DNA of 64,000 nucleotides. Source: a bacterium (lineage in GTDB: Bacteria > Hydrothermota > UBA3072 > JAPDKE01). The first letter of the stretch is position 1; the number at the start of each line of letters is the position of its first letter. The notes beneath the pieces were generated by a model, which worked only from the letters and a program-made list of their open reading frames with translations, ran no database searches and was not told where the DNA came from. Positions 1-63,932 of the stretch are shown piece after piece. Position numbers and translations under genes: made by a program. The DNA lies in NCBI GenBank assembly GCA_029258725.1, contig JAPDKE010000009.1, positions 1-64,000 of the forward strand, read 5' to 3'.

Positions 1-425
1 ATATAGTCTCCATAAAGAGCAATACGAAAAGTAAAGATGCCATCGTAAATTTTCCTCTTAAGGAGTACAGGTTCAGCAGGGACAGAAACATCCCAAACCT
101 CTATGCCTCCATCTCCACAGGAAAGATAGAGAATTTGCTTGCCTTCATCATACACAAGTTGAAGTACATTTCCCATAGTACGAATATCATCGGAAAGTTT
201 TACACAGGTATCAGGATCAGAAACATCAAAAATATAAACTCCACATCCAGAACCTGCAAAAACAAGATTCCTCACAGGATCATAAGCAACAGCATAAGAA
301 GGACCAAAAGGCCAGTTCCCCACCACCCGCATGTTGGAAGAATCATAACTGGCTGGAACATAAGGAGTCTGGGGAACACCTGGAAGGTTATCAAAAGGAA
401 GAGAAATAAAGAAAAGCATGAACAT
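1..425 (-). CDS. Partial secreted beta-propeller protein with LVIVD-like repeats
   Basis: Only the first 141 codons lie in the window; the gene continues past the left edge. After a short hydrophobic start (MFMLFFISLPF) come two repeats of the form VAYDPVRNLVFAGSGCGVYI then FDVSDPD, and LVYDEGKQILYLSCGDGGIE then VWDVSVP. Each is a four-stranded blade ending in (F/W)DVSxP, the signature of LVIVD-type propellers, which in this kind of bacterium are usually surface proteins with a C-terminal sorting domain. The start is chosen by GGGAGG 6-7 nt upstream; a second in-frame ATG lies two codons later. It sits 12 nt downstream of the LolA-like gene and is probably cotranscribed with it. The ligand is unknown. 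Confidence 0.75.
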   Translation of the reverse strand, partial: MFMLFFISLPFDNLPGVPQTPYVPASYDSSNMRVVGNWPFGPSYAVAYDPVRNLVFAGSGCGVYIFDVSDPDTCVKLSDDIRTMGNVLQLVYDEGKQILYLSCGDGGIEVWDVSVPAEPVLLKRKIYDGIFTFRIALYGDY

Positions 426-44994: not shown

Positions 44995-45896
44995 CGCTCC
45001 TCCTCCGGAATGTATATAAGGTAAAGGAACATGGAATCGACCTCTATTTCCTCCTTCCATGCATCATCGAGTTCGTTCTGCACCCTTATCGTGAATCCTT
45101 CAAGGCTGTCCTTTATTGCATGGTAAACATTTATCTCGCTTTCTCCTTCCTCTATCGTTCCGGTATGATATCTTTCATCTCCCCATATCTCAACCGGAAT
45201 TGAAACAGAGTCAGGAGTGATAACAACAAGACCTGCATGGAGCATTGCCTTGAAGGGCGGGATTTCAGGCTTGTGGATGTAAACCCTGAATGGAACACCT
45301 TTCCCAAGGACCAGTCCTGAAAGCGTATCCTCTCTTCCCTCAAGGTCTATAAGGTATGCATCCTGTGAGGGATGGAAAGTCTCTTTATCATCACCATGAA
45401 AGGCAAGAAGGCTCCTTTCTTCTATTCTGAGAAATGTATTGGAGAGAACAGCAAATCCATATTCAAAAAGTGATGAATCAACCACAATTTTTACTGAATC
45501 TTCACCACTTAAACTCACTTCCCTGTACACCTCACCCATAAGGGCTGTATCACTCCAGGAGAGGGAGGTATCATGCCATTCTCCCTCAAGTTTTTTCAGG
45601 AAAAGGCTTCCATTTACCGGTTCAGCGAATTTAAATTCAAGCAAAAGACTGTCATAATGGATTGTATCCAGGTCAAAGTCAATGAATGCTATTGCATGGT
45701 ATCCATTCTTTTCACCGCTAAGAAGAACTGAGGATGCACCGGTGAAGGGAATAAAGGAGTATGAGTAAAAAGAATCAACGGGTATCACAACTTCCTGCAC
45801 CTCATAGGGTTGTGCCTCAGGGGAACTTTCACCCGTGCAGGAGAGGAGAACGAGTAATATCAGAGCACAAACCCTAACTGGAAGTGGGGCTGCCAT
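44991..45896 (-). CDS. Envelope lipoprotein of unknown function
   Basis: A 301-residue protein with a lipobox (VCALILLVLLSC, Cys20) after a short N-terminus. The body is beta-rich with repeated Asp/Ser-Asp-Thr turns (IDFDLDTIHYDSLLLEFKFA, LEGEWHDTSLSWSDTALMG), reminiscent of the DNRLRE-type or carbohydrate-binding-like modules of surface proteins: strands giving HDTSLSWSDTAL and FRVYIHKPEIPPF. No named family is certain. It overlaps bamA by 37 nt and has AGGAGG upstream. Encoded between bamA and a barrel protein, it may accompany barrel assembly. Confidence 0.65.
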   Translation of the reverse strand: MAAPLPVRVCALILLVLLSCTGESSPEAQPYEVQEVVIPVDSFYSYSFIPFTGASSVLLSGEKNGYHAIAFIDFDLDTIHYDSLLLEFKFAEPVNGSLFLKKLEGEWHDTSLSWSDTALMGEVYREVSLSGEDSVKIVVDSSLFEYGFAVLSNTFLRIEERSLLAFHGDDKETFHPSQDAYLIDLEGREDTLSGLVLGKGVPFRVYIHKPEIPPFKAMLHAGLVVITPDSVSIPVEIWGDERYHTGTIEEGESEINVYHAIKDSLEGFTIRVQNELDDAWKEEIEVDSMFLYLIYIPEEER

Positions 45897-48061
45897 TTCT
45901 CCTCCTTTGCGTCTATTCCATATCCAAGGTCAAATCCCATGATTCCCATCATGGGAAGTTCAATCCTTATTCCTATCCCAACCCCTCTTTTCAGGTCCGA
46001 GAACTTCGCATCCAGGAAGGATGGGAATGCCCCTCCTGCATCAAAGAAGGCAAGGGCATAGGCTGTTTTTGATATGTTTCTGTGTATCTCAAACGTGAAT
46101 ACAAATGCACTCTTTCCCCCTATAACCCATCCCCCCTCAGCCTGCCCTATGCTCCTGTCCGGGTATCCCCTCACACCCCAAACCCCGGAACCTCCAGGAA
46201 CAAACCACTCATTCAAGGGAGGCTCCTTACCCCCAATTCCTGCAAGTATTCCTATTCTGTATCTCACAACCGCAACCCAGGATGGGAGAAACTCTGCAAA
46301 CCACCTCTGTTCCAGAACATACTTCTGATAGGCAATCTCTCCTCCGAGCCATCCTCCTGCAAACTCCGGTAAAAACTCGGTATAACTTCCCCTGCTTGCT
46401 CCCATGTATGTGTTTCTTGAATCCCTTACAATGGAGAAGGATATGGAACTCTTCCACTGCCATCCCTCATGAGCCTGACTTCTTATCCATGGACTTATGG
46501 AGGAGGTATCAACATTCTCTCCAAGAACGACCTTTACCTCTTCAAGGGTATAGGTTGCGCTTATCCTGTAATCCTTTGGGGTGTAAAGCCTCTTCCCAAG
46601 CCTTATCCTTCCCCCTATCTCTCCATATTCATAATAATCGTAAGTTCTGTAGGTATTAAACAGGTCAAAACCAACACTTGTTGGAACATCAAATAGATAG
46701 GGCTCAAGGAATCCGAAACTGTAATCCTTTATCTTCTTGCCCCTCTGGACGGTAAGCCTCACAAGCTGTCCCCTTCCAAGGAAGTTGGGAACGGAAAGGG
46801 AAAGATTGAGTGCAAGCCCTATATCCTCTGAATAACTTGCACCTGCAGAAAAAGAGCCGGTCTGCTTTTCCTTAACCGTAAGGACCAGGTCAACGGAATC
46901 CTCATGCTGTCTCATATCAACCTTTATGTCCTCAAAGTATCCAAGCCTGAAAAGCCTATACTGGCTTTCTATGAGTTTTTCGCGATTGAAGAGGTCTCCT
47001 GGATAAATAAGCAATTCCCTTCTTATAACCTTATCAAACGTCTTCGTGTTTCCTTTAATATCAATGAATCTCACATAAACCGGAGAACCTTCTTGTATTC
47101 TGAAAATTACGTTTATTGTGTCCTTTTTTATCATCTCCTCAGGGAATATGTTTGCATACAGGTATCCCCTGTCAGAATAAACAGAATACATATCCCTTAT
47201 TGTTTCCTCAAATTTTTTCCGGTTGAAAATTTCGCCTTTCTTCCATTTTATCTTTTTCCTCAGTATGTCTTCTGGAATTTTCTCCATTCCTTCAAGTACT
47301 GCATCTCCAAAATAGTATTTCTTCCCCTCGCTTACCCAGTAGTCTATCTCCACCCATCCCTCCTCAATCTCGTTTATCTTAAATGAGTCAACCCTTGCTT
47401 CAGGAAATCCGTGTTCTCTGTAATAATCCTCAATTTTCTTCACATCTTCCTCAACCGCCTCTTCATTCAGGTTTCCCCTCCTCCACCAGTTCTTTTCGTG
47501 GTTGGTGAGCAATTTTTTGAGTTTCTTCTCCGGAATGGATTCGTTTCCATAAAACTTTATCTTTTTCACCCTTAACTTCCTTCCCTCGTGAACCACAAAT
47601 GTAACCTTCACTGCCCCCTCAAGTTCTTCTTTCCTCACCTCAACCTCTGTCCCATGGAATCCCTTTTCTTTATAGATTTCTTTTATGTTCCTGACCGCAT
47701 CGAATATGTCCTTTTCAGAAATTATCTGTCCCTCAATGAGTTTTATCTTCTTTTTCAATTCCTTTTCCTTTATTTTTTTCACTCCCTCAAGTTTCCACTC
47801 AAGGAGCATGGGATTTTCTTTAACAACTATCCATATCCTTGCACCCCCTCCTTCCCTTTCTGCCTCCAGTCTTACATCGGAGAAAAGCCCGAGCGCATAC
47901 ACATTCTTTATTGCCCGCTCACTTTTTCTTTCCGTCATTATCTCCCCTATCCTGAGACCGGAGGCAGAAATCACAAGGGAGGTATCGGTCCGTTCAACCC
48001 CCTTTACGCATACATCAACTATTACTTCTCCATAAGGAAAGAGAGCGAGAATCCATATCAT
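45860..48061 (-). CDS. bamA: BamA outer-membrane protein assembly factor
   Basis: A 733-residue Omp85 protein: short signal (MIWILALFPYGEV), five POTRA domains (for example SGLRIGEIMTERKSERAIKN, VYALGLFSDVRLEAE, KIKFYGNESIPEKKLKKLL, FIDIKGNTKTFDKVIRRELL, YRLFRLGYFEDIKVDM), and a 16-strand barrel with the loop-6 motif VRGYPD and a C-terminal aromatic-rich strand (HFQLGFVL). It inserts beta-barrels into the outer membrane. The promoter's -10 is only 6 nt before the ATG and there is no ribosome site, so the message is probably leaderless. It leads an operon with a lipoprotein, a barrel, the Skp fusion and lpxD. Confidence 0.97.
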   Translation of the reverse strand: MIWILALFPYGEVIVDVCVKGVERTDTSLVISASGLRIGEIMTERKSERAIKNVYALGLFSDVRLEAEREGGGARIWIVVKENPMLLEWKLEGVKKIKEKELKKKIKLIEGQIISEKDIFDAVRNIKEIYKEKGFHGTEVEVRKEELEGAVKVTFVVHEGRKLRVKKIKFYGNESIPEKKLKKLLTNHEKNWWRRGNLNEEAVEEDVKKIEDYYREHGFPEARVDSFKINEIEEGWVEIDYWVSEGKKYYFGDAVLEGMEKIPEDILRKKIKWKKGEIFNRKKFEETIRDMYSVYSDRGYLYANIFPEEMIKKDTINVIFRIQEGSPVYVRFIDIKGNTKTFDKVIRRELLIYPGDLFNREKLIESQYRLFRLGYFEDIKVDMRQHEDSVDLVLTVKEKQTGSFSAGASYSEDIGLALNLSLSVPNFLGRGQLVRLTVQRGKKIKDYSFGFLEPYLFDVPTSVGFDLFNTYRTYDYYEYGEIGGRIRLGKRLYTPKDYRISATYTLEEVKVVLGENVDTSSISPWIRSQAHEGWQWKSSISFSIVRDSRNTYMGASRGSYTEFLPEFAGGWLGGEIAYQKYVLEQRWFAEFLPSWVAVVRYRIGILAGIGGKEPPLNEWFVPGGSGVWGVRGYPDRSIGQAEGGWVIGGKSAFVFTFEIHRNISKTAYALAFFDAGGAFPSFLDAKFSDLKRGVGIGIRIELPMMGIMGFDLGYGIDAKEEKWQPHFQLGFVL

Positions 48062-48067
48062 GCCCTG

Positions 48068-48095
48068 ATAATATCACAAACTGTTTCCTTGTCAA
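48068..48095 (-). promoter_or_regulatory. Promoter of the bamA operon, leaderless type
   Basis: TTGACA (48095-48090), 16-nt spacer, TATTAT (48073-48068) on the minus strand. Six bases lie between the -10 and the ATG at 48061, so the predicted first base is at the start codon itself. It occupies the 42-nt gap after the maturase stop codon. Confidence 0.82.
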
Positions 48096-48103
48096 CAGGA
48101 AAC

Positions 48104-49513
48104 CTATTCCATCTCCACATTTTTGAGATAATCAAGGGCATTCTCTTTTTTTTCTCTTATTTCGGTATAAAGGGTAAGGTAGAAATCTATGGTGGAGCGT
48201 ATCCCCTCGCAGTTTTCTTTTTTCCTCTCTCTTGAGAGTTCATTTCCCTTTTTTGCAGCAATGAAACAAGCATTGCAGAGTCTTACAGCCCAGCAATTCA
48301 GACACTCATCACTTATCTCAATAAATCTTTTTATGAGATTTTCCACTTTCTCTATGTCTATCCCCCTCTCCACATCCCCGATGGGGAGCCTTTCCCCCAT
48401 TTTTTCACAGATGTAAAACTTTCCATCGGTGGATACAAAAAGCCTTCTTTCTCCAGGAAGGCATATACCGTTGGGATAGTGGTAAGGAGGAAGAGGGGTC
48501 ATCTCTCTTTTATGAATGAGTATAAGATTTCCATCAAAAAGTCCATTTAAGAATGCAGAGCGTCTGCCCGAGGTTATGAGTTCCACAAATCTATCCTTTG
48601 CCTTCTCAAAGTTCTTTATCTTCATCTCCTCCAGCTCCTCACGCTTCCATCCTTCAAAAAAGGTGGTATCATTCTCATCAACCAGACTCACCACTATAGA
48701 GGAGGTTTCAGGGAATAATTCAAAGGAGGAAAAGAAATCATCTATGGCAAGTAAATCGTACGGAGGTGCTATGGTGACTATAAATCCCACGCAGGTGTTG
48801 AAGTATTCTTCGTCCTTCTCCCTTATTCTTCTCAGGGTCCTTACCACATCCCTGAAGGTTCCCTCACCATTTGCCTTTACCCTGTACCTGTCGTGGATTT
48901 CTTGCGGACCATCAAGACTTACCGAAAAGAACACCCTGTTTTGCACAAGGAAGTCAAGCATATCATCAGGAAGGTATACACCATTGGTGGTAAAATTGAA
49001 TCTTACATCCGGTCTTCTCTCCTTTGCATAAAGCACACTTTTCCTCAATACTTCTGGATTGAGCATGGGCTCTCCTCCATAAAATGTGATGAACGGTCTT
49101 TTCTCCTTTGTGGCATTTTCGAGAAAATAGTCTATTGCCCTTCTCGCCACATCCCATGGCATCATTTTATCCGAATGGGTTCTCTCATAATAATAACTTC
49201 CAGAATAAACGCAGTACCTGCATCTCAGATTGCATTTCTCTGTTAGATTGAGAATAAGCTGCCGCAGATTTTTCAACCTTTCCGGGATGGTCTCAAAGGG
49301 AAATTTAAGACCCTTGAGGGGAGAGTGGGAAAATAAACCTGATTTTTTTGCATTTTCTATTGCCTCTTCTGCCTCCTTCAGCTTCTCAGGAGCATAACCT
49401 GCCTTTTCTCCTCCAAGTATGTCCCATACAATCCTGTCAACCTGGAGGATTTTATTTGTGCAGGTATCGTACACGTAAAAATTATTTTTTGTTTTAAATC
49501 TGTGGATGAGCAT
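48104..49513 (-). CDS. Radical SAM/SPASM maturase of a Cys-rich RiPP (ranthipeptide type)
   Basis: A 469-residue radical SAM enzyme. Residues 1-70 (IHRFKTKNNFYVYDTCTNKI, LQVDRIVWDIL) resemble the N-terminal peptide-binding region of SCIFF/Clo7bot-type maturases. The SAM cluster motif is CNLRCRYC (Cys94, 98, 101), followed by ITFYGGEPMLNPEVL and FSVSLDGPQEIHDRYR. The C-terminal SPASM part (CLPGERRLFVSTDGKFYICE, IGDV, CLNCWAVRLCNACFIAAKKG, ERKKENC) supplies at least seven Cys for two auxiliary clusters and matches Cys-rich-peptide maturases that form thioether links. It starts right after a hairpin with no ribosome site and lies 38 nt behind the precursor gene. The reaction is inferred from the family. 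Confidence 0.88.
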   Translation of the reverse strand: MLIHRFKTKNNFYVYDTCTNKILQVDRIVWDILGGEKAGYAPEKLKEAEEAIENAKKSGLFSHSPLKGLKFPFETIPERLKNLRQLILNLTEKCNLRCRYCVYSGSYYYERTHSDKMMPWDVARRAIDYFLENATKEKRPFITFYGGEPMLNPEVLRKSVLYAKERRPDVRFNFTTNGVYLPDDMLDFLVQNRVFFSVSLDGPQEIHDRYRVKANGEGTFRDVVRTLRRIREKDEEYFNTCVGFIVTIAPPYDLLAIDDFFSSFELFPETSSIVVSLVDENDTTFFEGWKREELEEMKIKNFEKAKDRFVELITSGRRSAFLNGLFDGNLILIHKREMTPLPPYHYPNGICLPGERRLFVSTDGKFYICEKMGERLPIGDVERGIDIEKVENLIKRFIEISDECLNCWAVRLCNACFIAAKKGNELSRERKKENCEGIRSTIDFYLTLYTEIREKKENALDYLKNVEME

Positions 49514-49520
49514 GGGAACT

Positions 49521-49545
49521 TAAAAGGGGGAGGTCTGCCTCCCCC
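49521..49545 (-). terminator. Attenuator-like hairpin between RiPP precursor and maturase
   Basis: GGGGGAGG, loop CAGA, CCTCCCCC (49545-49526), a perfect 8-bp stem on the minus strand, followed by TTTTA (49525-49521). The T-run is short, so termination is probably partial, leaving far more precursor mRNA than maturase mRNA. The only purine-rich stretch that could bind ribosomes for the maturase is the 5' arm of this stem. Confidence 0.75.
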
Positions 49546-49551
49546 TTCCTT

Positions 49552-49692
49552 TTAATTGCCGTGGGAAAGTCTTGCAGACCCGATGTACTGGGTCATGGAA
49601 AGAAGATGTTCATTCCTGCATCCCATAATACAGACGCATCCACAATCCACCTTCTTGGTTCCGCCATTCCCCTCAAAGACCTCTCTTATCAT
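49552..49692 (-). CDS. Predicted 46-residue Cys-rich RiPP precursor peptide
   Basis: Too short for routine calling. The translation starts MIREVFEGNGGTKKVD, continues with the cysteine cluster CGCVCIMGC (Cys17, 19, 21, 25) and ends with a 21-residue tail without Cys (RNEHLLSMTQYIGSARLSHG then N). It has a consensus promoter, a perfect AAGGAGGT 5-7 nt before the ATG, and lies directly upstream of a Cys-rich-peptide maturase, the expected position for its substrate. A short charged N-terminal segment would be the leader and the CxCxCxxxC cluster the thioether donor core; acceptors may be in the Ser/Thr/Asn-containing tail. No known precursor family is recognised. The coding call is strong, the modification inferred. 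Confidence 0.85.
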   Translation of the reverse strand: MIREVFEGNGGTKKVDCGCVCIMGCRNEHLLSMTQYIGSARLSHGN

Positions 49693-49723
49693 CCATCCAC
49701 CTCCTTTTTATGGGTTTTTGAAA

Positions 49724-49752
49724 AGTATATCATGAGAAACCCTGTCTGTCAA
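49724..49752 (-). promoter_or_regulatory. Promoter of the RiPP cassette
   Basis: TTGACA (49752-49747), 17-nt spacer, TATACT (49729-49724) on the minus strand, one mismatch from consensus in total. The -35 overlaps the stop codon of the DIP synthase gene. About 30 nt separate the -10 from the precursor ATG, leaving room for its ribosome site. Confidence 0.88.
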
Positions 49753-62839: not shown

Positions 62840-63932
62840 CCTGCAACCAGCAGAACGGTCCTTTTTCCTCCCTTCTCTTCCATCCATACCTGCTCATCCT
62901 TATCCATATGCTCTCAAGGTCCTCCTCAAGAACCGACCCGAACTTCATGGTAACACCATCGCATGGTGTAACATCTCCATTGTTGGAGACGTGAAACATG
63001 GTTACTCCTGCAGGGCATCCGCATCCATAAAAGGAACGAAGATGACCATACCACCATACCCCGGGAACATCCTCCCTTTTCCACCATTCTTCCATGAACC
63101 CTCTCAATTTCCTTTCATACTCCCTGTCTCTCCTTTTCAGGTCCTTTCTCTCCTTCAGGCATCCTGCAGGAAGGGCATCAAAAACTGCGATTTCATTCAC
63201 GCCCAGTTTCACTCCCAGTTCCATCATTTCCTCAAGCACCCCTGAGGAAAATCTCTCAGGAGAGGAGAAAGTTGAAAGTCCAACAAGCATCCTTTCCCTT
63301 TTCGCCGCCTCTATTCCCTTCAATGCCTTTTTAAAAAGACCCTTCAACCCCCTGTGTTCATCGTGTCTTTTCTCATCCGGAAAATCAATGCTCACATATA
63401 CACGATTGAGCCCGCTTCTTTTGAGTTCCTTTATTCTTTCTTCAAGCAAAAACCCATTGGTGTAAATCACGGGGATAGCATATTCCTGATCCACATGGGA
63501 AATGAGTTCTGGAAGGTCTCTTCGTAAAAGTGGTTCTCCCCCCTCAAAAACTATGGTAAACACACCAAGCATTATGGATTCCTCTATAACTCTTTTCCAT
63601 ACTTCTCCGGGAAGGTCCTTTCCGGGATATACTGTTGCTGCACAGTGTTTGCATCTGCAGTTACATCTTGCGGTAACTGCAAGGGTTGTAAGTCCTGGAT
63701 ATCTAAGCCCATACTTGAGGGAATTGAACATCCTTGCACCCGAATTTACGAATGCAGGGCTGAACTCTGCAGGCACAAGGAGACCTCTTACCGGAAGTCC
63801 ATTTTCCCATCCTATTATCTTATCGTGCCCCAAATGGAAAACCAGCATCTGGGACTGGAGTTTTCTCAGGGATGGGATCCCGTATTTCAGAGTAACAAGA
63901 TTGTATCTTATTCTGTCACGCCATTTCACCAT
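62829..63932 (-). CDS. Radical SAM protein with partial SPASM domain
   Basis: A 367-residue radical SAM enzyme. After about 80 residues (RIRYNLVTLKYGIPSLRKLQ, MLVFHLGHDKIIGWENGLP) the cluster motif ARCNCRCKHCAATVYPGKDL appears, then IVFEGGEPLLRRDLPEL and RVYVSIDFPDEKRHDEHRG. The C-terminal part has FYGCGCPAGVTMFHVSNNGD, VTPCDGVTMKFGSVLEED and a last Cys near the end (GPFCWLQ), a shortened SPASM that could hold one auxiliary cluster. The substrate could be a peptide, a porphyrin-like or a lipid compound. ATG 63932 follows GGAGGTGC. It is cotranscribed with the RND exporter; the operon may begin beyond the window. Confidence 0.85.
   Translation of the reverse strand: MVKWRDRIRYNLVTLKYGIPSLRKLQSQMLVFHLGHDKIIGWENGLPVRGLLVPAEFSPAFVNSGARMFNSLKYGLRYPGLTTLAVTARCNCRCKHCAATVYPGKDLPGEVWKRVIEESIMLGVFTIVFEGGEPLLRRDLPELISHVDQEYAIPVIYTNGFLLEERIKELKRSGLNRVYVSIDFPDEKRHDEHRGLKGLFKKALKGIEAAKRERMLVGLSTFSSPERFSSGVLEEMMELGVKLGVNEIAVFDALPAGCLKERKDLKRRDREYERKLRGFMEEWWKREDVPGVWWYGHLRSFYGCGCPAGVTMFHVSNNGDVTPCDGVTMKFGSVLEEDLESIWIRMSRYGWKRREEKGPFCWLQDEE

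Follow-up and report, generated by a model that had tools for sequence, protein, structure and literature searches.

Sactipeptide precursors follow a published pattern in which a leader of 8-29 residues precedes a core of 26-44 residues, with donor cysteines towards the N-terminus of the core and acceptors towards its C-terminus (PMC8326336), and a review places the thioether links of SCIFF and freyrasin at Cbeta/Cgamma (PMC8326336). SacP23, from a CcpM-associated CLI_3235 cluster of Paenibacillus polymyxa, has antimicrobial activity, its links not having been determined (PMC10731318). Here we describe a two-gene unit on the minus strand of a 64,000-nucleotide stretch of bacterial DNA (the window), in which a 46-codon precursor gene is followed, after a gap of 38 nt, by the gene of a 469-aa radical SAM/SPASM protein. 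Judged from sequence comparisons, this unit extends a known partnership of enzyme and peptide by a new branch and is not a wholly new kind of system: the enzyme falls short of the curated model cut-offs and the peptide matches no precursor model, which places the pair as a variant branch.

The likeness is greatest to CcpM and the CLI_3235 peptides, with which the locus shares the best-scoring maturase model, a short leader, a Cys block, a Cys-free tail and a Cys-rich small peptide gene adjoining the maturase gene. The window leader, however, is of an MI-x3-[WF]-x-G kind and not a CLI_3235 leader, with no match to TIGR04065 (CLI_3235-family precursor), and the unit has no adjoining accessory genes, protease or exporter, in contrast to the eight genes of the SacP23 cluster. 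RumMC, the maturase of the sactipeptide ruminococcin C, provides the second-best model over the full length, and the window peptide has the leader and core proportions of a sactipeptide; yet the score of 277 bits compares with a cut-off of 720, and the precursor is not recognisably related. With the ranthipeptide maturases CteB and PapB the enzyme shares the domain order of leader-binding domain, radical SAM domain and SPASM region, CteB being the closest solved structure. Both differ in giving lower model scores, and the window peptide has four Cys against the six of SCIFF in its 45-residue precursor and lacks the C-x3-D/E pairs of freyrasin. Membership of the SCIFF or freyrasin families is ruled out by the model scores and the Cys pattern.

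Organization of the Locus

The features of the unit and of its downstream boundary are as follows.

49724..49752 (-): sigma-70 type promoter, TTGACA-17-TATACT, its -10 preceded by TG
49700..49705 (-): ribosome-binding site AGGAGG, 7 nt before the precursor ATG
49552..49692 (-): precursor peptide gene, 46 aa (open reading frame, signals, family profile)
49522..49549 (-): hairpin with a 12-bp stem, then TTTTAA, between the precursor and maturase genes
48104..49513 (-): radical SAM/SPASM peptide maturase, 469 aa, CcpM/RumMC-like (models, alignment, fold)
49274..49513 (-): maturase N-terminal leader-binding (RRE-like) region, residues 1-80 (alignment, predicted structure)
49211..49234 (-): radical SAM cluster motif CNLRCRYC, residues 94-101 (alignment)
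48209..48463 (-): SPASM region, residues 351-435 (seven invariant Cys)
48068..48095 (-): promoter-like site TTGACA-16-TATTAT of bamA, downstream boundary of the unit
45860-48061 (-): bamA, next gene downstream, start 48061

An earlier note on this DNA had described the promoter, the ribosome site and the 46-codon frame, and all three were confirmed. The promoter overlaps the stop codon of the preceding gene. The genome contains 46 perfect sites of the form TTGACA-16..18-TATA[AC]T, whereas the reversed control pattern occurs 2 times, and the promoter class is therefore genuine. AGGAGG is also the ribosome site of most of the related precursor genes. Since bamA has a promoter-like site of its own, precursor and maturase look like a transcription unit apart from it. 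The genome encodes a reverse gyrase, which supports the note's view that the host is a thermophile, as it probably is.

The position of bamA directly after the maturase gene led us to consider a link to BamA of the kind known for darobactin. This was rejected: bamA has its own promoter-like site, the genes after it resemble skp and lpxD, as is usual, and in relatives bamA was not noticed next to the maturase gene. The bamA of the window is one of at least two genes for BamA-like Omp85 proteins in the genome (the other at G000:C2:34626-35516).

The intergenic hairpin, which the earlier note did not mention, recurs in relatives: a stem score of 24 was reached in 12 of 15 precursor-maturase gaps versus 4 of 17 control gaps (Mann-Whitney p 1.4e-4). 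It is likely either a partial terminator that keeps the precursor in excess or a stabiliser of the RNA 3' end, and precursor transcripts would thereby outnumber those of the maturase.

The Maturase

The downstream gene product was confirmed as a radical SAM protein (PF04055, E 3e-21). As in radical SAM/SPASM maturases, it combines a CX3CX2C motif with a leader-binding N-terminal domain and seven SPASM cysteines (C351, C369, C404, C407, C413, C416 and C435), the latter being invariant in 17 homologues and the last spacing being CX2C. The score against the Pfam SPASM model lies below the cut-off. Two auxiliary Fe-S clusters are expected in this region. The CX3CX2C motif is likewise kept among the homologues, with the exception of one (G049) that lacks the middle Cys, and the N-terminal region is without about 13-16 residues carried by most relatives in the phylum.

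The likeness of the N-terminus to SCIFF maturases, proposed in the earlier note, is borne out by the predicted structure (pLDDT 90), which starts with three strands and then helices, in the manner of the CteB leader-binding domain. By sequence, CteB (5wgg) is also the best solved relative, matching over the whole length including the N-terminal domain (E 4e-63), and CteB structures came out on top in a fold search. No CcpM or RumMC structure was among the matches of the PDB search, so the rank of CteB partly reflects what has been solved.

The curated models point elsewhere. CcpM (TIGR04068) is the best, with 336 bits (E 4e-100) over nearly the full length and a cut-off of 500 bits that no genome of the phylum passes, followed by RumMC and then by models of the lachnocin maturase (217 bits), a GG-type maturase (187) and a QhpD-type enzyme (157). 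PapB (NF047865; 153 bits, below the cut-off of 340), a ScfB-related model (140) and SCIFF (TIGR03974; 135 bits, below 425) come only after these, and models for cyclophane-forming enzymes match more weakly. The CcpM, RumMC, PapB and SCIFF models each match all 17 aligned homologues. The designation "ranthipeptide-type" in the earlier note is thus not supported by the scores.

The Precursor Peptide and Its Relatives

The 46-aa peptide, MIREVFEGNGGTKKVDCGCVCIMGCRNEHLLSMTQYIGSARLSHGN, consists of a leader (residues 1-16, MIREVFEGNGG...), a Cys block (17-25, CGCVCIMGC, with Cys at 17, 19, 21 and 25) and a Cys-free tail (26-46). It has no match to any NCBIfam or Pfam family, precursor models included. 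The earlier note had taken it to fit no known precursor class, a statement that needs revision: if the core starts at C17, the 16 + 30 aa division and the confinement of all Cys to 17-25 agree with the published sactipeptide pattern (PMC8326336), and the CLI_3235-family precursor next to a Paenibacillus CcpM homologue (L012), which does match TIGR04065, has its parts in the same order.

CcpM-like maturases were found in 16 of 147 genomes of the same phylum. A small Cys-containing open reading frame with a strong ribosome site lies directly upstream of 15 of the 19 homologous maturase genes, which were defined by coordinates, as opposed to 1 of 147 control genes (Fisher p 8e-17), figures to be read with the reservation that the criteria were fixed after some loci had already been seen and that the genomes are not independent. 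The sole control match is itself a second precursor-like frame within a maturase cluster. This is not the case that the note had named as contrary to its reading, of maturases consistently devoid of such a neighbour. Examples of the upstream peptides are MIEVMNWGGG...CQCGCTCVCGCLCSC (G074), MFEIMSWSSAGG...CSCGCACSCSC (G012), MINAKNWGGASG...CGCACVCNCICGC (G127), MERLDWGLG...CICTCAC (G024) and MINIIG...CVCLSPGC (G103). Their Cys number ranges from 2 to 9, and the Cys positions and the start of the leader are their most conserved parts.

A profile built from the other precursors, with the window peptide held out, ranked this peptide first among 841 small open reading frames (E 4.6e-4), as did an earlier training set (E 0.03). 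Leader positions 2-12 alone, scored with an ungapped matrix that left out Met1 and all of the window Cys, also gave rank 1 of 841; with the Cys masked, the whole-peptide profile placed it only seventh of 841, with a poor E-value. The profile in addition picked up two further precursors blind, in two genomes (G110 and G013) whose maturase genes each lie close to the edge of a contig. Codon-level comparison of two congeneric pairs outside the window genome yielded pN/pS values of 0.21 (G042/G110) and 0.24 (G013/G024, with synonymous sites saturated), and the Cys block is kept in both. These related precursors are under purifying selection, contrary to the note's other adverse case of a frame that is not conserved.

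The closest maturase compared (G001, 43% identity) is preceded by a frame that the earlier note did not mention, encoding MILDIFNDGVEPDIEPTADPDSPPLYCTLGCPSYPPFAVRNTHA in the same position, with a similar ribosome site and a hairpin before the maturase gene. This peptide, which begins MILDIFNDGVE, shares the start of its leader with the window peptide, and its CTLGC matches the window CIMGC. It has only two Cys, and the number of bridges is thus not conserved. The held-out profile missed it (rank 81), the connection being made by position, leader start and CxLGC. The precursor gene of this relative is itself preceded by a gene of sigma-factor type (Sigma70 region 4; L136:5646-6173(-)).

Further precursor-like frames were seen in other clusters. 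In the maturase clusters of G042 and G110, a second, different Cys-containing frame lies immediately ahead of the ABC transporter (L147:3323-3484(-), ..ICDCTTSYGCRI.., and L139:3114-3278(+), ..ACNCSFYYGCRI..; pN/pS 0.51). In Clostridiaceae bacterium M8S5 (L010:4316-5860(+)), four related small frames (CPCGC/CSCGC/CFCGC) precede a single CcpM-like maturase gene; NCBIfam gave no match for the one that was searched.

Proposed Modification and Alternative Interpretations

Taken together, the profile ranks and the upstream-frame association rule out a chance open reading frame, and the two genes almost certainly form a real precursor-maturase pair, in agreement with the earlier note, in which the enzyme would modify the peptide. 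That the 46 codons are untranslated or unrelated to the enzyme, a reading to which the missing family-model match lends something, is scarcely credible given the promoter, the ribosome site, the leader similarity and the conservation of the arrangement in relatives. The 46-residue peptide is probably the substrate of the maturase, the likely product being a sactipeptide-like thioether hairpin. The N-terminal domain of the enzyme would bind the leader (MIREVFEGNGG...), the SAM cluster would generate a 5'-deoxyadenosyl radical to remove hydrogen from the acceptor residues, and these would then be attacked by the Cys thiols, probably bound at an auxiliary cluster, to form thioethers. In the likeliest shape, donors C17, C19, C21 and C25 would be joined to residues in the Cys-free tail; C21 and C25 are perhaps the most essential pair, as the CIMGC motif resembles CTLGC of the nearest relative. 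We infer that the peptide is modified, that its links are thioethers attached at Calpha and not at Cbeta/gamma, and that the topology is a hairpin, and likewise infer cleavage, export and activity.

The same gene pair might instead make a ranthipeptide, with thioethers to Cbeta or Cgamma of the acceptors. CteB, the best solved relative, is a SCIFF maturase, the links of SCIFF and freyrasin are of this kind (PMC8326336), and the PapB and SCIFF models match the enzyme significantly; their scores, however, are less than half that of CcpM and well below that of RumMC, and the rank of CteB carries the bias of the solved structures noted above. Freyrasin-type precursors obey a C-x3-D spacing rule, and neither this nor C-x3-E spacing is present in the window peptide, which has four Cys only. 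We regard a ranthipeptide as unlikely, and sactipeptide is the best-supported label in view of the higher-scoring models, the short leader, the N-terminal Cys and the Cys-free tail. A different chemistry altogether, such as epimerisation, formation of a C-C or C-O bond or a single Cys-based change, in which the cysteines would form disulfides or bind metal, is a good deal less probable still: radical SAM/SPASM maturases are chemically diverse, the cyclophane-enzyme models do match, if more weakly, and the Cys count among related precursors varies widely, but the best models are families associated with Cys-rich thioether peptides, and the features that the precursors preserve most strongly include the Cys positions.

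With the sactipeptide-like pair, the CcpM/RumMC-like enzymes gain a precursor family unrecognised by NCBIfam precursor models. Its host lineage is uncultured and probably thermophilic, and the enzyme is possibly heat-stable. Natural variants with differing Cys numbers provide material for studying what governs acceptor choice and bond type in such enzymes, and the two-Cys variant of the closest relative makes a minimal core directly testable. The papers found on WOR-3 together with RiPPs do not, from their titles and abstracts, appear to concern such precursors.

Export and Neighboring Genes

The lack of an adjacent transporter, remarked on in the earlier note, applies to the window locus but not to the phylum at large, where about half of the clusters have an ABC exporter gene beside the maturase gene on the same strand. 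These transporters comprise membrane and ATPase domains; the ones tested showed no C39 peptidase domain. In the stretches examined, no cluster ABC transporter was found in the window genome or in those with the maturases closest to its own (G001, G012 and G103); ABC-exporter homologues are encoded elsewhere in the window genome, in which no C39 leader peptidase was found. The units here and in the nearest relatives could conceivably represent a separate thioether RiPP class that would be served by no dedicated protease or cluster exporter and would have an intracellular or envelope housekeeping-type role, unlike bacteriocins, a proposal that we consider rather improbable.

At a locus of G002, from the same class (L141:1104-4700(-)), two consecutive radical SAM genes are followed by genes for an ABC ATPase and a membrane protein, with no Cys-rich precursor recognised. 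Large proteins of about 690-750 aa, those of L145 and L144 without a Pfam match, are encoded next to maturase or transporter genes in several clusters (L145:783-2999(-), L149:9174-11426(+) and L144:1398-3458(-)). At the end of the window and beyond it, three more radical SAM genes stand in a row (63288-63677(-), G000:C12:64508-65989(-)).
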